Origin: an uncultured Nitratireductor sp.
GTDB taxonomy: Bacteria; Pseudomonadota; Alphaproteobacteria; Rhizobiales; Rhizobiaceae
Assembly (NCBI RefSeq): GCF_913053745.1
Contig: NZ_CAJXGF010000003.1
Location: 1-64,000, forward strand
Direction: 5' to 3'
Length of the DNA stretch: 64,000 nt
A program made the translations under genes and the position numbers. How positions within the stretch are numbered: position 1 is the first letter of the stretch; each line of letters begins with the position of its first letter. Below, in pieces: positions 8,042 through 50,368 of the stretch. The notes under the pieces were generated by a model. That model did no database searches and was not told where the DNA came from. It saw only the letters and a program-made list of their open reading frames with translations.

Positions 8042-8793
8042 TCCGCCTCGCTTCCACGGCCGTGATGGCGCGCCGGCATGAGCCGGCGGACAGTCTGGAT
8101 TTTTTCCCGACACCGCCATGGGCGACACGTGCTTTCTGCGAGCACGTGCTGCCGCGCGTCTTTCCCGATCCGCACCTGTTTCACAATCCCGCCTGGGATC
8201 CGGCCTGCGGCGAGGGGCACATGGCACTCGCCCTGGCAGACTATTTCGCCCAGGTGCATGCGAGCGACATCTTTCCCTACGGGTTCGGCCAGGTGGCCGA
8301 TTTTCTGCATCAGGACTTTCGCTGGAAGCCGGCGGAATGGATCATCACCAACCCGCCTTTCGCCATCGGCCGGGATTTCATCCTGAAAGCGCTACAGCTC
8401 GCCTATCGCGGCGTTGCCATGCTTGTGCGCACGGCCTTTTGCGAAGGGCAGGGCCGCTATGACGATCTGTTTTCCATCTATCCGCCGGCGATGATCGCCC
8501 AATATGCCGAGCGCGTGCCCATGCATCGCGCCCGCTGGGTGGTGAATGGCAAGACCGCGACCGCCTATTGCTGGGTGGTCTGGCTGAAAGAGTTTGGCAA
8601 GCCGATCGTGGACGACACGCGGTTTGTCTGGATCCCGCCGTCCCGAAACACGCTGACGCGACCCGACGACTGGCTGCGCTTCGGCGGGTGCATGGACATT
8701 CCCGACAAGCACAAGGCGCGCCAGCTTGCGGCCGAGGGCGGCGTGATGCGGCCGGCGCCGACTCGCCAGGAGATCCAGGCGGGGTTTTTGTGA
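8038..8793 (+). CDS. DNA adenine (N6) methyltransferase
   Basis: A 251-residue SAM-dependent DNA methyltransferase. Motif I is 'WDPACGEGHMALAL' (about 53-66) and motif IV is 'ITNPPFAIGRDF', the NPPF form of N6-adenine (or N4-cytosine) enzymes. There is no endonuclease partner nearby, so it is an orphan methylase, possibly for protection from host restriction or for timing of replication. Recognition site unknown. ATG overlaps upstream TGA; stop overlaps the primase start (TGATG). Confidence 0.88.
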   Translation: MIRLASTAVMARRHEPADSLDFFPTPPWATRAFCEHVLPRVFPDPHLFHNPAWDPACGEGHMALALADYFAQVHASDIFPYGFGQVADFLHQDFRWKPAEWIITNPPFAIGRDFILKALQLAYRGVAMLVRTAFCEGQGRYDDLFSIYPPAMIAQYAERVPMHRARWVVNGKTATAYCWVVWLKEFGKPIVDDTRFVWIPPSRNTLTRPDDWLRFGGCMDIPDKHKARQLAAEGGVMRPAPTRQEIQAGFL

Positions 8794-9920
8794 TGCACGG
8801 TGACCTGAAAGAGATCCGCGCGGCACTCAATCTGCGGGTGCTGGACGTGTGCGAGCGGCTTTTGCCGCATGGCCGGCTGATCGCAGGCCAGTGGGAATCT
8901 TGCAATCCGCGCGTTGCCGGCGACGATCGCAAGCTGCCGGCGCTGAAAGTGCGCGTGCATGGCGGCGAGCCGGGAGCCTGGCAGGACTGGCGCAACGGCC
9001 GCGACGGCTATGCCGGCGACATCATCGGCCTGGTCGGCTATCTCAACGGCACGGACACGAAAGGCGCGCTGGCCTGGGCGCGCGATTTCCTCGGTTTGCG
9101 CTCCATGAGCCGGGAGGAGCGCCGGGCCATGCGCTTTGCGGCCGAGGCGCAGGCGAAGAAGCGTGAACAGAAGGCGGCGCAGGACCGCCTGAAAAAGCGC
9201 CGGCGTGCGCGCGAGCTCTTTTCCTCCATTCCCCTCCAGGCCGGCCCGGCCGGTGCCGCCTACCGCCATGCGGTGGCCTATTTCGCGGCGCGGCACATGC
9301 CGCTTCACCAGGTGCCGGCGCTGAATGAAGAAAATTTCTGTTTCTCCGCCGCGACCGAATGGTGGCGGGGCGCGACCTATCGCACCGAACCGGATGGCCG
9401 GCGCATGAAAACCGTGCCGGGACCGAGCTTTCCGGCCGTGCATTCGGCCATGCGGCAATGGAATGGCGAGATCTCCGCCTGCCATGTGACGTTTCTGGAT
9501 CCGGTCGAGGCGGCGAAAGCGCCGGTGCAGCCGGCCAAGCTTATGTTTGGAGAGGCGCAGGGAGCGGTGATCGAGGTCGCCATGGGGCCGGCATGGGCAC
9601 CTTTCTGGGATTGCGAGGAGCCGCACCCGCTGATCATCGGCGAGGGGATCGAGAGCGTCGGGCCGCTGGCGATCGCCGTGCCGGAGGCGCGCGTCTGGGC
9701 GGCCGGTTCTCTTTCCGGCATGCGCCATGCCCCGGTGCATCTTCCCTGCATCTCCGAGGTGTTTGTCGCGCGCGACAACAACACCGGCAATGCCCAGGCA
9801 CAAAAGCAGCTCGACGCCGCGCTGGAAGCGCTCGAGGCGGCGGGCAAGCCGCTCAACGTGATGGCGAGCCACGTGGGCGACGATTTCAATGACCTCGCCG
9901 ATGACGACGAAGGAGAATGA
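8793..9920 (+). CDS. Toprim-domain DNA primase
   Basis: A 375-residue primase-like protein. The N-terminal 100 residues hold a domain as in phage primases of the DUF7146/Toprim_3 type ('PGAWQDWRNGRDGYAGDIIGLV'), followed by a basic helical linker (about 107-150). The C-terminal Toprim region has 'LIIGEGIES' (catalytic Glu), 'VFVARDNN' (Asp) and 'VGDDFNDLADDD'. It would make RNA primers for phage replication, working with the helicase at 11682. The start at 8793 is a TGATG overlap; the track's longer start is inside the methylase gene. Confidence 0.87.
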   Translation: MHGDLKEIRAALNLRVLDVCERLLPHGRLIAGQWESCNPRVAGDDRKLPALKVRVHGGEPGAWQDWRNGRDGYAGDIIGLVGYLNGTDTKGALAWARDFLGLRSMSREERRAMRFAAEAQAKKREQKAAQDRLKKRRRARELFSSIPLQAGPAGAAYRHAVAYFAARHMPLHQVPALNEENFCFSAATEWWRGATYRTEPDGRRMKTVPGPSFPAVHSAMRQWNGEISACHVTFLDPVEAAKAPVQPAKLMFGEAQGAVIEVAMGPAWAPFWDCEEPHPLIIGEGIESVGPLAIAVPEARVWAAGSLSGMRHAPVHLPCISEVFVARDNNTGNAQAQKQLDAALEALEAAGKPLNVMASHVGDDFNDLADDDEGE

Positions 9921-11681: not shown

Positions 11682-13544
11682 ATGGCGAAAAAGACGACAC
11701 AGACCGGCACCCGCGCTATCCGCGCCATCTTCGAGACCGCCAGGCGTCAACTCGAGGACGAAAAGCCGATTGACTCCCCGGACCCGAACGAGCCGCGCAA
11801 CGGTCTTCGCGCCGGCCAGTGGCCGGGCGCACCGCACGATGCGTTGCCGCCCGACTGCCCGGTGCATGTGATCGGCCGAGACGCCGGCGGCACGGTCTGG
11901 GTCCGCACGGCGACCGGCCACATGCGGGCGGTCGAGAAATGGGACATGCCCACGCTTCTCGACCTGTTCGCGCCGGACGTGAATTATCTGTTCTGGGCCT
12001 GGCCGGCCTTCGGCAAGAAAAAGACCGTTGGCGAGGATGGCACCGTGCAGGAGGAGCTGCGCGTTGTGCGCCTCGAGCGCGACAAGGTGGCCGCCTGCCT
12101 GATCAACGCCGCCGCCAAGCGGCCGGATTTCGATCCCCAGACCCAGCATCGCGGCCGTGGCGGCTGGCAGGACAAGACCGGCCGTTTCGTGTGGCACTCC
12201 GGAAACTGGATGTGGAGCGTCAACGGCTCGACGCTCGAGCGCGCCCGGCCGGGCGAGCATGAAGGCTTTCTCTACACCCGGCAGCCGACGACGATCGAGC
12301 CCTGGGACGCGCCGATAAAACAGGATGAAAGCCCGGCCTTGCGGATCCTCGAGGATCTGCGCAGCTGGAAATGGGAACGGCCCTATCTCGACCCGGTGCT
12401 TTGCCTGGGCTGGATTGCAACCGCGATCATGGGCGGCGCTTTGAAGGCGCGGCCGATCGTCTTTACCGGCGGTGGCGCCGGCGTCGGCAAGTCGACCTTG
12501 CATGAGCTCCTGCGCAACGTGCTCGAGGGCGCGGTGTTCGCGGCCGTCGACACCACGGCCGCCGGCATCTATCAGCGCGTCAAGCACGATGCCCTGCCGA
12601 TCCTGGTCGACGAGCTGGAGAACAAGCCGGGATCCACGAAGGCGCAGAGCGTGATCGAGCTGGCGCGCGTTGCCTATACCGGCGGCGACATCGCCCGTGG
12701 CGGTGCCGACCACGAGGGCACAACCTTCCGCATGCACAATTCGTTTCTGTTTTCCGCCATCAACCCGCCGCCCATGACCGAGGCGGACAAAAGCCGCATG
12801 GCGATCCTCAATCTTTCTCGCCTGGACATGGCGGACGGCGTGGGGCGCAAGATGAGCGTGGCGATCGAGACGGACGGCCGCATGCTCCTGCGCCAGATCA
12901 TGGACGGATGGACGGAGTTTTCCGGCCGGCTCCTGCAGGACTGGTGGGACACGCTGCAAAAGCAGGGGCTCGACAGCCGGGCGATCGATACCTATGGCAC
13001 GCTCCTGGCGGCCGCCGAGCTGCTGGTCGGCCCGGCCGAGCTCGAGGATATCGGCCTGCCGGTGACAGACCAGACAAAGCTGGGCGAGATCATCGCGGCC
13101 GCCACGGCGCTCGAGCGCGGCGAACGGCTGGACAATTGGCACAAATGCGTCAACCGGTTGCTCGATTCGACGATTGAGGCCTGGCGCGACGGCGTGAAGC
13201 CCACGGTGGGCGGCGTGATCGACCAGGTGGAGCGCGACAACCTCGCGCTCGAGTTCGCGAAAGAGCGCCTGCAGCTGGTCAATCTTAGCATCCGCAACAA
13301 GGGCGACCCCGGTGATGGTTTCTGCCTGGCAGTGCCCAATGACGGGCCGGTGCTGCAAAAGCTGTTCGCGGATACGGAATGGCAGCGCGGGGGCTGGTTC
13401 GGGGCCTTGAAGCAAGCGCCCAACAACGTTGTGTTGCGCAACGAGGGCAACAAGCAGAAGCTCAAGATCAACGGCTCCACGAAGCACTGCCTTCTGATCG
13501 ATATGTCGGCGTTCGCGGCCTATGTCGACAAGGAGGGGCGGTGA
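11682..13544 (+). CDS. Phage replicative helicase/ATPase (P-loop, D5/DUF927-like)
   Basis: A 620-residue ATPase likely to unwind DNA at the phage fork. Walker A is 'FTGGGAGVGKST' (about 261-272), a probable Walker B is 'LPILVDELEN' (about 303-312), and 'FLFSAINPPPMTEADKSR' is a sensor/arginine-finger-like region. The N-terminal 230 residues carry a domain with 'GRFVWHSGNWMW' as in DUF927-type phage helicases. There is no separate primase domain; the Toprim protein at 8793 would supply that. Terminates with GTGA overlap to the next gene. Confidence 0.82.
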   Translation: MAKKTTQTGTRAIRAIFETARRQLEDEKPIDSPDPNEPRNGLRAGQWPGAPHDALPPDCPVHVIGRDAGGTVWVRTATGHMRAVEKWDMPTLLDLFAPDVNYLFWAWPAFGKKKTVGEDGTVQEELRVVRLERDKVAACLINAAAKRPDFDPQTQHRGRGGWQDKTGRFVWHSGNWMWSVNGSTLERARPGEHEGFLYTRQPTTIEPWDAPIKQDESPALRILEDLRSWKWERPYLDPVLCLGWIATAIMGGALKARPIVFTGGGAGVGKSTLHELLRNVLEGAVFAAVDTTAAGIYQRVKHDALPILVDELENKPGSTKAQSVIELARVAYTGGDIARGGADHEGTTFRMHNSFLFSAINPPPMTEADKSRMAILNLSRLDMADGVGRKMSVAIETDGRMLLRQIMDGWTEFSGRLLQDWWDTLQKQGLDSRAIDTYGTLLAAAELLVGPAELEDIGLPVTDQTKLGEIIAAATALERGERLDNWHKCVNRLLDSTIEAWRDGVKPTVGGVIDQVERDNLALEFAKERLQLVNLSIRNKGDPGDGFCLAVPNDGPVLQKLFADTEWQRGGWFGALKQAPNNVVLRNEGNKQKLKINGSTKHCLLIDMSAFAAYVDKEGR

Positions 13545-13873: not shown

Positions 13874-14213
13874 TCACAGTTCATAGAGCAGCCGTGCACG
13901 GCGCTGGTGGCGTTTCTGCGTCGCCTGGCGCGGCTGCGGCGTATTTGCCGTGTGTCACATCATAATGACCAGCAGCCCGGCAGGGCTGCGCCGCTTTCCT
14001 ATGTCCCGCCTCCAGGGCGAGGGAAACGGCTATTATGTCCACTCCCACGCCCGCGCGCCCATCCAGCAATTGACAGCCCAACCCCCGCCCCATTGGGAGA
14101 ATGCGTGTTCCCGCCGCGCCATTTTCGGCCCGAAACAGCGCATTTCGAGCGCAAGCACTTGTCGCAAGGTACGGCGTGCGAGGTTTGTGCCGTGCGCCTG
14201 GCGGGGCAGGGCG

Positions 14214-14442
14214 GTTACCAAGGTAACCCGGTGTAACGCGCAGGTAACCGAGAAAATCCAACAAAAACAGATAGGTGCGCTTTGCGGTTACAAGTTACCC
14301 GAATAGGTCATGCATCACGCATGCGCGCGCGCATGTGCGCATGTGAGGTAACTGGTAACCATGTAACCTATGCGTGTAGGTATATGTATTTGCTGGAAAA
14401 AAGCCGGTTACAACGCGGTTACCTATCGGCGGTTGTGGTAAC
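14214..14442. repeat. Cluster of 12 GTWAC motifs, candidate origin iterons
   Basis: GTAAC or GTTAC, mostly inside GGTWACC, occurs 12 times: at 14214, 14223, 14233, 14244, 14287, 14294, 14348, 14355, 14363, 14407, 14418 and 14438. The first four are 9-11 bp apart, about one helical turn. Random expectation for a 229-bp stretch is under one. The last copy is 41 bp before the TerS ATG. Confidence 0.75.
14316..14345. other. Alternating purine-pyrimidine tract (Z-DNA-prone)
   Basis: Thirty bases strictly alternate pyrimidine and purine, with the self-complementary centre CATGCGCGCGCGCATG. It lies between groups of the GTWAC motifs. Such tracts can adopt Z-form or melt/cruciform under supercoiling. 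Confidence 0.6.
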
Positions 14443-14482
14443 CGACAGGTGACGCCGAGCGCCCGAATAAAATAATGGTTTC

Positions 14483-15154
14483 ATGGCTATGAGCGACGAC
14501 GACGACACCGAAAAAGGGACATTGGAAGGCGCGCACACGGGCGGTTCCGACCGCCTGGCGGCCGATCTCCACCGCGTCGACCAGGAGCGCGCCCAGGCCG
14601 AGGGCGATCAGCTCGACCTGCTCGCCGGCTCGCTCGATATCCACGACGAGGACGTGCTGGCGGCAGCATCGGAACTTGTTGCCAAGCCTCGACGGGAGCG
14701 GGGGAGGCCGCCGGGCAGCGCCAATCGGCGCAATACGCAAGTGTTCGACTATCTCGAGCGCCTGGGCCATCGCGACCCGGCGGTTACGCTGTCCATGATC
14801 CAGTCGGCGGATACGCTGCAGCTTGCGGCGGCGCTCGGTGCCAATACGGCCAAGGGACGCCTGGCCGTTCTGGGGTTGCAGCGGGCGGCGGCGGCAGAGC
14901 TCATGCCCTACAAGTATGCGAAGAAGCCGCAACAGATCGACCTGCCGCCCGATGTGGCCCGGCCGTTGATGGTCATCGGCGAGATGAATGTCGGGATCAG
15001 CACGCAATCGGACGTGATGAGCGTGGCCGATCCGCGAGCGAAAAAAGCCAATGAAATCAATAGCGGTCCCGTGCGGATAGTCGATAATGATCCGCACGAT
15101 GATAGCCAAGCTATTGATAACACTGACAAAAGCGGCGCTGAAACACCTGATTGA
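14483..15154 (+). CDS. Probable terminase small subunit
   Basis: A 223-residue protein just upstream of terminase large, where the small subunit is expected. The acidic N-terminus is followed by 'KPRRERGRPPGSANRR', an AT-hook-like basic patch (about 72-87), then helices ('FDYLERLGHRDPAVTLSMI', 'GRLAVLGLQRAAAAELMPY') and a polar tail. The family is very variable, so the call rests mainly on order and DNA-binding character. The ATG at 14483 or the one two codons later could be used; neither has a strong ribosome site. Confidence 0.65.
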   Translation: MAMSDDDDTEKGTLEGAHTGGSDRLAADLHRVDQERAQAEGDQLDLLAGSLDIHDEDVLAAASELVAKPRRERGRPPGSANRRNTQVFDYLERLGHRDPAVTLSMIQSADTLQLAAALGANTAKGRLAVLGLQRAAAAELMPYKYAKKPQQIDLPPDVARPLMVIGEMNVGISTQSDVMSVADPRAKKANEINSGPVRIVDNDPHDDSQAIDNTDKSGAETPD

Positions 15155-15443
15155 AAATCAGTTGATCGACCGTCATCTGGCCGAGCATGGTTTTTGCCTG
15201 GCGCATCCAGTTGCCACTCCATGCCTCGACCCCGCCCCCTCCCTTCGCGCCATGGGCAGACCGGCCTTGTCGAATTTCAAAACCGCGCGCCCCCTGTCCT
15301 AGAGGGGCCCTACGGCTTCACACACACGACCCGTTTCAACAGGCCTGCCCTGAATTGACGCCTGCCGGTGCCGAATAACCTTGCGACGTTGAATCGGGCG
15401 CAGGGTGCGGATGCGCGCGCGCCGTGGGATGCAGGGAGCCGGG
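15155..15443. other. 289-bp gap between TerS and TerL
   Basis: Two ORFs cross this gap (15087-15302, 71 residues, overlapping TerS, and 15187-15378, 63 residues). Neither has a ribosome site or recognisable domain, though the first begins with a plausible helical stretch. No clear promoter or terminator is seen. Confidence 0.4.
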
Positions 15444-17051
15444 ATGAAAAGGGCCGTCGAGAAGCCGCGCTTCGATATTTTCAAGTTCACGCCGCCGGGA
15501 CCGGTTGCCGCAAGCTACATTCAATCGGAAGGGCCGATCGATCTCATCCTAGGGCCATGGGGCAGCGGCAAGACCGTTGCCACCGTGTTCAAGATCGCCC
15601 GGCATTCGAGCAACCTTTTTCCGGTCTGCAAGGATGGCGTCATCCATGTGCGCTGTGCCGCCTTGCGCGACACCTATCGCGAGATGGCAAAGACCGCGCT
15701 TTCTTCCTGGCACGAATTCTTTCCCAAACGCGGCCCGTACACCGCGCAGGAGCCCGGCGCGTATTCGGGCGGTCAGGACCGGCCCGTCAAGCATATCCTC
15801 GAATGGAACACGATCCGGCAGTGGCCGGAGGGGCCGAAAGAAACGCTGGTCCGGCTGGAAATGGAATTCGGCGCGATCGGCAACGAAAATCTCGACAGCT
15901 TCTTCAAGGGCTACGAGATCTCCATGGGCTGGCTCAACGAGTGCGATCTGGTCGATGAAAGCGTGCCCGGAAGGCTTTACGGCCGCACGGCGCGTTTTCC
16001 CCCACGCGTCGAGATTATGGAATGGGAGGGCGACCGGCTGGGCTGGGAAAAGGACCCGGACAGCGGGATCGATGTGATCCGGCTGCCACGCATCATCATG
16101 GGCGATTATAACCCGCCCGATCCCGCCAACTGGACGTACAAGCGCCACATCGAGGAGCCGGAAAAGTGGCCGGGATTTACCTTCTTTCATCAGCCATCCG
16201 GCCTTTCGCCGCAGGCCGAGAACCGGATTGGCAAAAGCCGAAGCCAGTATGAGGAGGAAGAACAGGCTTTCGGCGGATCGAAACATCCGGACGCGCAACG
16301 CAACGTCCATGGCAAGTATGCCGCGAAGAAACAGGGCACGGTTGTCTACGATCAGTTCGACATGTTCCGCCACCGCTCCGACCAGAACCTCGATCCGGTG
16401 CGCGAACTGCCATTCTACATGGGATTCGACGCCGGCGGCACACCCGCCTGCGCGATTGGGCAGTTCATGCCGAACGGTCAGCTGCGCGGCCTGCGCGAAA
16501 TCGTGTCTCTGCCGGACACCGTGACGGGGCCGGAGCGTTTCGCCGCGGCGGTGATGGAAGTGCTTCTACGCGATTTTGCCGGTATGGCGTGCGCCGGCGC
16601 CTGGGGCGACCCTTCGGCCTGGTACGGTGCCGACAAGGAGCACGGCAGTCTCGCTTTCATGGAAACGGTGGCGCAGGCCTTGCAGGTCAACATCCAGCCC
16701 ACGGCGAGCAACGACATCCAGTCGCGTAAAGAGGCCGTGGAATGGTATCTGAAAGGGAACATCGACGCGAACACACCGCGCTCGATCTGGGATCCGCGAC
16801 TGAAATACACGATTGGCGGCTTCGCGTCGCAGTATCATCTGACCAAGCAGGCGACCGAAGGCAAAACCGACCGCCTGGAGATCGCCAAAAACCATTATTC
16901 CCACATCCACGATGCCTGGCAGTATCTCTGCTACGGCTATCGCGGCCCGCGCGCCGTGCGCGATGAAGCGGCCAGGATGGGCCGCCCCACCAATGTGGTG
17001 CCGATGCGCTCCGTCCAGGCCAAGACCGATTTCGACATATGGAACGTCTGA
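15444..17051 (+). CDS. Terminase large subunit
   Basis: Packaging motor and nuclease that moves DNA into the prohead through the portal. 535 residues from the ATG at 15444, chosen because GCAGGGAGCCGGG precedes it. ATPase: Walker A 'LGPWGSGKT' (about 36-44) and a Walker B/catalytic Glu region 'GWLNECDLVDE' (about 162-172). Nuclease: 'YMGFDAGG' (D329) and 'WGDPSAWYG', then 'YSHIHDAWQYLCYGY' near the C-terminus. Family of podoviral terminases rather than the T7 gp19 type proper; packaging mode cannot be told. Confidence 0.93.
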   Translation: MKRAVEKPRFDIFKFTPPGPVAASYIQSEGPIDLILGPWGSGKTVATVFKIARHSSNLFPVCKDGVIHVRCAALRDTYREMAKTALSSWHEFFPKRGPYTAQEPGAYSGGQDRPVKHILEWNTIRQWPEGPKETLVRLEMEFGAIGNENLDSFFKGYEISMGWLNECDLVDESVPGRLYGRTARFPPRVEIMEWEGDRLGWEKDPDSGIDVIRLPRIIMGDYNPPDPANWTYKRHIEEPEKWPGFTFFHQPSGLSPQAENRIGKSRSQYEEEEQAFGGSKHPDAQRNVHGKYAAKKQGTVVYDQFDMFRHRSDQNLDPVRELPFYMGFDAGGTPACAIGQFMPNGQLRGLREIVSLPDTVTGPERFAAAVMEVLLRDFAGMACAGAWGDPSAWYGADKEHGSLAFMETVAQALQVNIQPTASNDIQSRKEAVEWYLKGNIDANTPRSIWDPRLKYTIGGFASQYHLTKQATEGKTDRLEIAKNHYSHIHDAWQYLCYGYRGPRAVRDEAARMGRPTNVVPMRSVQAKTDFDIWNV

Positions 17052-46864: not shown

Positions 46865-49800
46865 ATGAGCCTTATGGATGTTTTGAAACTGCCGCGCGAG
46901 GGCGCTGGCGCTCTGACCGTGGATGGTGTCGCCGACGGTTTTGAGGCCTTTGCGCTGAGCGTGGTGGCGCGCGAGGTGGCACCCGACGGTCCGACGATCT
47001 TCGTTCTCCGCGACGGGCAGCGTCTGCCGGCGCTCGTCGATACGCTACGGTTTGCCGATCCTGGATTGCCCGTTCTGGACCTGCCGGCCTGGGATTGCTT
47101 GCCGTATGATCGTGTGTCGCCGGGGGGAGATGCGGCCGCTCGGCGACTTGCGGCGATGGGTGCCATGGCCGAGCTTCGCAGGGTGCCGCATCGCGCGATC
47201 GTGATCGTCAGTGCCAATGCGCTTTTGCAGCGCATGCCCCCGGCGGATCAGATCGGCGCTCAGGGCTTTTTTGCGCGCCCCGGAAATCAAGTAAACATGA
47301 CCGCGCTTACAGGAAGGCTGGAAACGAGCGGTTTCGAACGTGTGTCCACCGTTCGCGACGTTGGCGAATATGCGGTGCGCGGCGGTATTCTCGATCTATT
47401 CGCCCCCGGCTGGGATGAGGCGCTGCGGCTCGACTTCTTCGGCGACACACTCGAATCGGTCCGCGCCTTCGATGTGGCGACCCAGCGCACCGTTGGCCAG
47501 CGCACCGAAGTTGCACTTCAGGCGATGAGCGAGATCACACTTACGTCTGATGTGATCAGCCGGTTTCGGCGCAACTATATCGAGACTTTTGGTGCGCCCT
47601 CGCGCGACGATGCGCTTTATACGGCCGTTACCGAGGGGCGACGTTTTGCCGGTATGGAGCACTGGCTTCCATTGTTTCACGAACGCCTTGAAAGCGTCCT
47701 CGATTACCTTCCTGAAGCACCTGTGGTGTTCGATCATTTGGCCGAAGAGGCGCTCGGTGAGCGTCATGCACTGGTTGTCGATCATTACGAGGCCCGTCGC
47801 GTGCAGATGGAGGGAAGCGAGTTGGGCGGTGCGGTTCCCTACAAACCCGTTGCACCCCAGACTCTCTATCTCGACCCGGATGAGGTGCGTGCGGCGGCGA
47901 GTGCCAGACGCGTGATCCACTTTACGCCGTTTGCAACGCCGGAGACCGGCAAATCGCGCGTTTATCACGCCGGGGCGATGGCTGGGCGCAACTTTGCCGA
48001 GGAACGTGCCGATCCCAATGCCAATGTTTTCGACCATGCCGTCAAGCACATCGGTGCGCTGCGCGCCAATGGCAAGCGTGTGTTGATTGCCGGTTGGACT
48101 GAGGGTTCTGCCGAGCGTCTTTCGCAGATTCTCGCCGAACACAGTTTGGGCAATGTCGCGCGTGTCGACACCCTGGCGGAGCTGGAAAAGCGTCCGCAAG
48201 AGCAGGCCGGAATCGGTATTCTCCCGTTGGAAGCCGGTTTCGAGACGGCGCGATTTGCCGTTATAGGCGAACAGGATATTCTCGGCGATCGTTTGGTACG
48301 CCGTGCGAAGAAGCGCAAGAAAGCGTCCGATTTCATCGCCGAAATTGCCGCGCTTTCGGCCGGCGATATCGTTGTTCATGCCGATCACGGGATCGGACGG
48401 TTTATCGGCCTCAAGACCATCGAGGCTATGGGTGCCCCGCATGATTGCCTCGAATTGCGCTATGCGGGTGACGACCGGCTTTTCCTGCCGGTCGAGAACA
48501 TCGAACTCTTGTCACGCTATGGCTCCGACGGGCCGGACACAATGCTTGACAAGCTTGGCGGTGTCGCCTGGCAGTCACGCAAAGCGAAGCTCAAGAAGAA
48601 GCTTCTGGAAATGGCTGGGCATCTTATCCGCATTGCCGCGGAACGTGAAATGCGCCCCGGCGTGAAGCTTGCGCCGCCCGACGGTCTCTATGGGGAGTTT
48701 GCCGCGCGTTTTCCCTATGAGGAGACGGACGATCAGCAGACAGCCATCGACGCCGTGATCGACGATTTGAGCTCCGGGCGGCCCATGGACCGGCTGATTT
48801 GTGGCGATGTGGGGTTCGGAAAGACGGAGGTCGCCCTGCGTGCTGCGTTCGTCGCAGCCATGGAAGGGCTGCAAGTTGCGATCGTTGTTCCCACCACGCT
48901 TCTTGCCCGACAGCATTTCAAAACGTTTCGCGACCGGTTCGCCGGCCTGCCACTGCGTGTGCGTCAGGCATCCCGGCTTGTCGGGTCGAAAGAGCTTTCC
49001 GAGACCAAGAAGGGGCTTACGGACGGTACGGTCGACATCGTTGTAGGCACGCATGCGCTTCTGGGCAATTCCGTTACATTCAAGAATCTCGGCCTTCTCA
49101 TCATCGATGAGGAGCAGCATTTCGGTGTCAAGCACAAGGAACGTTTGAAGGATCTGAAGTCGGACATTCACGTTTTGACGCTCTCGGCCACCCCGATCCC
49201 GCGAACCCTGCAGCTTGCACTGACCGGTGTGCGCGAGCTGTCGCTCATAACGACGGCGCCTATGGACCGTATGGCCGTGCGCAGCTTTATCTCTCCGGTC
49301 GATCCGCTGGTCATACGAGAGACGCTTTTGCGAGAGCGCTATCGTGGCGGGCAGAGTTTTTACGTCGTCCCGCGCACCTCCGATCTGGCCGAGGTGCGCG
49401 ACTTTCTGAACGAACATGTGCCCGAACTGAAAGTGGCCACGGCGCATGGGCAGCTACCGCCCGGCGAACTCGATGACATCATGAACGCGTTCTACGATGG
49501 GCAGTACGATGTTCTTCTATCGACGACGATTGTTGAATCGGGCCTCGACATTCCCACCGCCAACACGCTGATCGTTCACCGCGCGGATATGTTCGGTCTC
49601 GCGCAGCTCTATCAGTTGCGAGGTCGCGTTGGCCGTTCCAAGGTGCGCGCCTATGCTCTCTTCACCCTTCCGCCCAATCGGACACTCACGACTACGGCCG
49701 AACGGCGGCTCAAGGTTCTGCAATCGCTCGACACACTTGGCGCGGGATTCCAGCTTGCAAGTCACGATCTCGATATTCGCGGTGCCGGCAATTTGCTCGG

Positions 49801-50368
49801 CGAGGAACAGTCGGGGCATATCAAGGAGGTCGGCTACGAGCTTTATCAGCAGATGCTGGAGGAAGCGGTTGCCGAGTTGAAGGGTTCAGAGGAGGCCGCC
49901 GACACAGGCTGGTCGCCGCAGATCACCGTCGGAACCGCAGTGATGATACCCGAAAACTATGTTTCGGATCTCCAGTTGAGGCTTGGCCTCTACCGTCGCA
50001 TTGCCGAATTGGAAACGCCGGAGGAGATTGACGCTTTCGGTGCGGAATTGATCGACCGTTTCGGTGCCCTTCCGCAAGAAGTTGAGCATCTCCTCAAGAT
50101 TGTCTTCATCAAGGCACTTTGCCGCAAAGCCAATGTGGAGAAGCTGGATGCCGGCCCGAAGGGCGTTGTGGCACATTTCCGCAATCAGGAGTTTCCGGAT
50201 CCGGTGGGGCTTGTGCGTTTCATCGGCGAGCAGGGTTCACTTGCCAAGATACGACCCGATCAGAGCATCGTTTTTATCCGCGACTGGCCGACGCCCGAGA
50301 AACGACTTGCAGGCGCTGCTGTCATCATGACGCAACTTGTGCGACTGATCGACAAAAAGGCAGCCTAG
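46865..50368 (+). CDS. mfd: Transcription-repair coupling factor
   Basis: Removes stalled RNA polymerase from damaged DNA and recruits UvrA. 1167 residues, full length. UvrB-like N-terminal region ('[14 protein letters not shown]', '[17 protein letters not shown]'-like block), RNA-polymerase interaction domain with '[17 protein letters not shown]', then RecG-like motor: '[18 protein letters not shown]', '[18 protein letters not shown]', '[14 protein letters not shown]', '[15 protein letters not shown]', and the C-terminal D7 domain. The 93 bp after it, before the FrnE-like gene, are AT-rich with no clear hairpin. Confidence 0.98.

Follow-up and report, generated by a model that had tools for sequence, protein, structure and literature searches.

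A twelve-site iteron array beside a D5-type helicase gene is the probable replication origin of a temperate alphaproteobacterial phage

Twelve short repeats located between the replication and packaging genes of a prophage very probably constitute its replication origin, which would be bound by a D5-type helicase through the C-terminal winged-helix-like domain of this enzyme. The assignment is well supported and we hold it with high confidence on a comparative basis, namely the conservation of the array across related loci, its geometry and the covariation of its motif with the helicase. The same evidence favours the initial annotation of these repeats as a candidate origin and goes against the two binders suggested there, a DnaA-like helix-turn-helix (HTH) protein (6345) and a winged-helix protein (13541).

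The whole stretch of DNA analysed here, 64 kb in length and referred to as the window, corresponds to a temperate podovirus-like prophage of an alphaproteobacterium. Its gene order from the left is integrase, HTH regulator 6345, Toprim primase, helicase, array, terS, terL and later genes, with head-tail adaptor, major head, tail and endolysin genes to the right of terL. The array follows the 3' end of the helicase gene and precedes terS/terL; the small gene 13541 sits between helicase and array, and terS starts approximately 40 bp downstream of the array. The relevant coding features are listed below.

8568–9920, plus strand: Toprim primase (PF13362, PHROG 510), partner in the replication module
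11682–13544, plus strand: replication helicase of 620 aa with the D5 / NrS-1 / SaPI5-Rep fold, the proposed initiator
13182–13541, plus strand: C-terminal domain of the helicase (residues 501–620), winged-helix-like, the proposed iteron binder
14483–15154, plus strand: terminase small subunit (terS), assigned by position and conservation
15405–17051, plus strand: terminase large subunit (TerL), related to the annotated TerL of BcepC6B and others

The Toprim primase was present in all 50 relatives with enough flanking sequence, and TerS relatives were found directly upstream of TerL in most loci. The start of terS is strongly kept in relatives, both as a peptide (KGxxEAHTP) and as DNA (GGCACACACGCC, for example at 14513–14535 of the window); either coding constraint or a signal for packaging could explain this conservation. 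A large helicase-like ORF (PHROG 34613 and 16) is found further right in the window, at 46865–50368, outside the recognisable phage modules.

Between positions 14214 and 14442 we counted 12 GTWAC sites in 229 bp (at 14214, 14223, 14233, 14244, 14287, 14294, 14348, 14355, 14363, 14407, 14418 and 14438), in line with the number first reported. Elsewhere in the window, a 229-bp stretch contains two at most, and the maximum per 229 bp never exceeded three in 200 simulated first-order Markov sequences of 64 kb each. Six of the 12 sites are full GGTWACC, which occurs only twice outside the array in the 64 kb (5139 and 17056). The first four sites are spaced by 9, 10 and 11 bp, confirming the approximately 10-bp phasing noted earlier, and no ORF of at least 60 aa lies wholly within 14265–14422. 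The sites represent a single asymmetric motif, GGTAACC, present in both orientations and arranged in four groups of 4, 2, 3 and 3. A structured RNA was rejected, with no Rfam match at the array. A DnaA-dependent origin was also rejected, as there is no cluster of DnaA boxes: none was found between 8 and 19 kb of the window when TTWTCCACA was searched with up to one mismatch. GC skew keeps the same sign across the array, a point weighed against the origin assignment. The array and the DNA preceding terS comprise the following elements.

14213–14249, mixed orientation: iteron group A, four sites (in GGTAACC orientation, 14213–14219 minus, 14222–14228 plus, 14232–14238 plus and 14243–14249 plus), with geometry kept in relatives
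14250–14285, no strand: A-B spacer, AT-rich, a candidate unwinding element by its AT content in relatives
14286–14299, minus strand: iteron group B, two sites, from the site map
14316–14345, no strand: alternating purine-pyrimidine tract of 30 nt, CGCGCG type and Z-DNA-prone, read from the sequence
14347–14368, plus strand: iteron group C, three sites 7 and 8 bp apart, from the site map
14369–14405, no strand: C-D spacer, AT-rich, a candidate unwinding element by its AT content in relatives
14406–14443, no single strand: iteron group D, three sites (minus, minus, plus), from the site map
14465–14476, plus strand: AT box GAATAAAATAAT, located past the last iteron and ahead of terS, kept in relatives

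This arrangement is not particular to the window. Among relatives of TerL in Rhizobiales genomes and viral contigs, an array was present at the same place wherever the upstream sequence sufficed. A search with the helicase yielded 36 Rhizobiales genomes and another 80 viral contigs, and arrays were detected by an unsupervised search for clustered 6–7-mers with a score of at least 3, the best score in shuffled controls being 2.1. At this threshold, 99 of the 104 loci with a related helicase carry a short-repeat array on the 3' side of the helicase gene; the five in which none was found, including the 634-aa L062, are distantly related and were weighed against the origin assignment. Refined site maps gave 12 as the most frequent number of sites, 70 of 96 loci having 11–13, and the median span of the array was 239 bp. 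Positions were measured relative to group C in the 52 loci with a clean parse of this group, whose sites fall at 0, 8 and 16; group B is located at about -65 and -55 on the opposite strand and group D at about 60, 70 and 80–100, mostly on the opposite strand. The spacing and orientation of the sites survive a complete change of motif, the repeats of relatives including GGTAACC, AGTAACC, TCTAACC, CCTAACC, CATAACC, TGTAACC, GCCAACC, GTCTACC, TTCAACC, TGTCTCA, TCTAATTG and GGTGTACCC, among others.

In three loci (L067, L070 and L075) the same geometry directly follows a distant helicase. The array of L067 consists of 12 copies of CGTTACC from the helicase stop onwards, and the packaging genes of this locus are unrelated and lambda-type, with a GpA-type TerL (phrog_15). 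The position of the array beside the helicase despite unrelated packaging genes was counted in favour of the origin assignment. In some relatives, cargo genes sit between helicase and array, which then stays beside terS, and this was weighed against the assignment; such insertions were identified in L006, L010, L012, L045 and L051, and the helicase-array gap appears to be a preferred site for the insertion of cargo. Other clustered short repeats (ATTGCG, AAAGCCA, GAGGCAA) were observed upstream of the helicase gene in L080 (465–669), L082 (432–543), L091 (1026–1135) and L057 (1024–1286), and some relatives may thus carry a second regulatory array at this location.

The composition of the spacers is also kept. 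In 28 cleanly parsed arrays, the median AT content is 62% in the A-B spacer and 68% in the C-D spacer, compared with 35% for the loci. The B-C spacer of these arrays is not AT-rich and carries an alternating purine-pyrimidine run with a median length of 22.5 nt, compared with 6 nt in random 50-mers. The iterons on both sides of each AT-rich spacer point inward (A> AT <B and C> AT <D), so that the array can be read as two half-origins. A literature search found no papers on Z-DNA in connection with phage iteron origins.

Across these loci, the motif follows the helicase, and more precisely its C-terminal part. In 40 non-redundant loci, motif distance correlated with the distance of helicase residues 421–620 (partial Mantel r = 0.399, p = 0.001), whereas the corresponding values were -0.03 for TerL, -0.04 for TerS and -0.17 for the N-terminal and ATPase regions of the helicase. 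In 41 loci that allowed comparison with the 6345 homologue, the partial correlation with the motif was -0.21 for this protein and 0.36 for the C-terminal part of the helicase. Overall, the partial Mantel r for the C-terminal third of the helicase was 0.35–0.40 (p = 0.001), and because the change of motif follows this third, the helicase was proposed as the origin binder, and its C-terminal domain probably contacts the iterons. One pair of loci illustrates the same relationship. L006 and L010 are 91% identical in DNA from terS, just right of the array, rightwards, and their 6345 homologues are 85% identical, whereas their helicases share 57% identity and the motif GGTAACG of L006 is replaced throughout the array by TCTAATTG in L010. 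Judged from this comparison, the pair is a natural exchange in which helicase and array changed together between flanking genes that are 85–91% identical.

The remaining analyses of covariation were less discriminating. Parsimony required 16 motif changes on the tree of the N-terminal and 17 on that of the C-terminal helicase region, compared with 19 on the TerS and 20 on the TerL tree, and these counts separate helicase from terminase only slightly. In strict residue-level tests, the C-terminal domain of the helicase did not stand out, and a residue-by-residue specificity code was rejected on these grounds. Residue 593 of the helicase is a lysine in 10 of 15 members with GGTAACC, a valine in all five with TGTAACC and a threonine mostly with CC/GC/TC motifs; this pattern is suggestive and we treat it as a lead only.

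The predicted structure of the helicase is in accordance with a role as initiator. Its sequence matches PHROG 21086 and 35358 ("DNA primase"); no Pfam family, those of D5 included, was assigned above cut-off, and a sequence search of solved structures returned nothing useful. The AlphaFold model (pLDDT 92.6) showed fold matches in the PDB to the NrS-1 CTR, SaPI5 (7ola), vaccinia D5 and monkeypox virus (MPXV) E5. Based on this model, the proposed initiator is a helicase of the D5/SaPI-Rep fold; it is putatively hexameric. The last 120 residues form a confidently predicted separate domain (pLDDT 90.7), which matches winged-helix folds only weakly.

Several other explanations of the array were considered. 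Its position is compatible with a pac/cos-type site for packaging initiation bound by the small terminase, as TerL begins 490–1120 bp past the array with a terS-sized ORF between them in 90 of 91 loci, and cargo inserts separate the array from the helicase rather than from terS. The specificity of such a site should follow its cognate small terminase; however, neither TerS nor TerL covaries with the motif, and L006 and L010 differ in motif even though these loci are 91% identical from terS rightwards. An array directly after the helicase also occurs together with the unrelated GpA-type terminase. We consequently rejected the packaging site and regard it as very unlikely. An array acting chiefly in late-transcription control, on a promoter before terS, was the main alternative offered by the initial annotation. 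The array indeed sits at the early/late boundary, and 60 of 91 relatives carry an AT box (AWTAAAnAAW) in the interval that separates the last iteron from terS, compared with 0.7% of random 130-mers; one promoter-like match spans 14449–14476. The box at 14465–14476 is a possible -10 element of a late promoter or an extra melting site. However, a layout of 12 sites with two AT-rich spacers and a CG-alternating tract far exceeds the size of an operator, the helicase is the sole protein found to follow the motif, and the near-universal regulator 6345 does not. Late control is therefore improbable as the main role of the array and possible as a second one, and the conservation of the AT box before terS makes a coupling of replication to late transcription possible.

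The two proteins named earlier as potential binders fare no better when judged by distribution and covariation. Protein 6345 contains helix-turn-helix domains and is represented by homologues in 49 of the 50 relatives whose flanks were long enough, but its partial correlation with the motif is negative and it is 85% identical in L006 and L010, whose motifs are unrelated; there is very little chance that it is the array binder. For protein 13541, the adjacent position of its gene and a weak Trans_reg_C match could be adduced. Homologues were found only in the window and L005 in the first set of loci and in one of 50 relatives with enough flank in the larger set, whereas the array is nearly universal, which makes recognition of the array by this protein scarcely credible.

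Repeats of this kind also occur next to other replication proteins. A reciprocal test with the exact trio pattern identified 18 dense GTWAC arrays, only two of which accompany the present helicase family. Three GTAAC arrays without a detectable relative of the helicase adjoin the 3' end of other replication proteins, namely a Prim-Pol/AAA_25 protein in L194 (1234–3300) and DUF5906 helicases in L188 (745–2994) and L189 (5188–6852), which suggests that similar motifs arose with other initiators. Further GTAAC arrays of 7–10 copies have no identified replication gene close by (L173, L174, L190, L192 and L193), their neighbours including a glycosyltransferase gene in L174 and GpA-type terminase genes in L192 and L193. 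Given these arrays with unrelated replication proteins or no identified partner, this system cannot be recognised from a GTAAC array alone.

For the origin proposed here, we hypothesised the following sequence of events. The C-terminal winged-helix-like domain of the helicase would bind the 12 iterons of two convergent half-origins (A/B and C/D) set apart by the alternating CG tract, which may itself take some part in initiation. Upon binding, helicase rings would assemble on the iterons, the AT-rich spacers would melt, and a ring would be loaded onto the melted DNA, with primers being made by the phage Toprim primase (8568–9920). A more specific combined model, which we put forward only tentatively and consider rather doubtful as a whole, equates the 12 sites with one per protomer of two hexamers, places the Z-DNA-prone tract between half-origins of six sites each, where it would keep two loading events apart, and has self-loading helicases positioned head to head, with specificity that co-evolves. 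With respect to specificity shifts, we hypothesised that phage lineages have repeatedly altered the C-terminal domain of their helicase in concert with all twelve sites, which might prevent cross-initiation by related prophages. Approximately 100 phage or prophage loci carry this doubled form of iteron origin. Their roughly 100 helicase-motif pairs make the DNA-recognition code of a D5-type initiator directly testable, as well as the change of origin specificity at twelve sites at once, and the fixed geometry limits models of how D5-type helicases are loaded onto duplex DNA.

In lambda-type origins, multiple short repeats (the O protein iterons) and an AT-rich region are found inside the O gene, whereas the array described here lies outside any gene; lambda-type origins also use a separate initiator, whereas here the helicase itself is the proposed binder. 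The alpha protein of phage P4 is a fused primase-helicase, and P4 ori and crr are separate sites that contain iterons. P4 resembles the present proposal in that helicase activity and origin recognition reside in a single phage protein that has its own cognate ori, and we set the present system beside P4 by description (alpha and its ori are mentioned in PMC6092414). The helicases of SaPI and SCCmec elements recognise, through their C-terminal domain, iterons that lie immediately downstream of the helicase gene; SCCmec Cch2 binds its AAGTG iterons in this way and depends on them for helicase activity (PMC7581432). Cch2 thus resembles the present system in pairing a D5-related helicase with short iterons downstream of its gene, but has three iterons rather than about twelve, an unrelated motif and a different type of element.

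The closest parallels are with SaPIs and PICIs. In Gram-negative PICIs, an AT-rich region lies between two iteron sets and a rep-ori segment drives plasmid maintenance (PMC6092414). Like these systems, the window and 99 of 104 relatives have iterons directly 3' of the gene for the initiator helicase, and iteron sets flank AT-rich DNA, here twice (A/B and C/D). The initiator is of the Rep or Pri-Rep type in SaPIs and PICIs, and the modelled window helicase matches SaPI5 (7ola); recognition of the iterons by its C-terminal domain is proposed here from covariation. Because fold and anatomy are alike, the array most likely works like SaPI/PICI origins. Unlike these satellites, the elements described here are complete phages with terminase, head, tail and lysis genes, and the window was rejected as a PICI satellite, as it has TerL, adaptor, major head, tail and endolysin genes of its own. 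Further differences are the four iteron groups in two convergent modules instead of two sets, the central CG-alternating tract, the separate Toprim primase gene and a helicase sequence that matches no Pfam D5 family above cut-off. As read from the sequences, what is new is that complete phages have an iteron origin of the SaPI/PICI-like type, whose architecture is doubled and conserved and whose specificity changes frequently.
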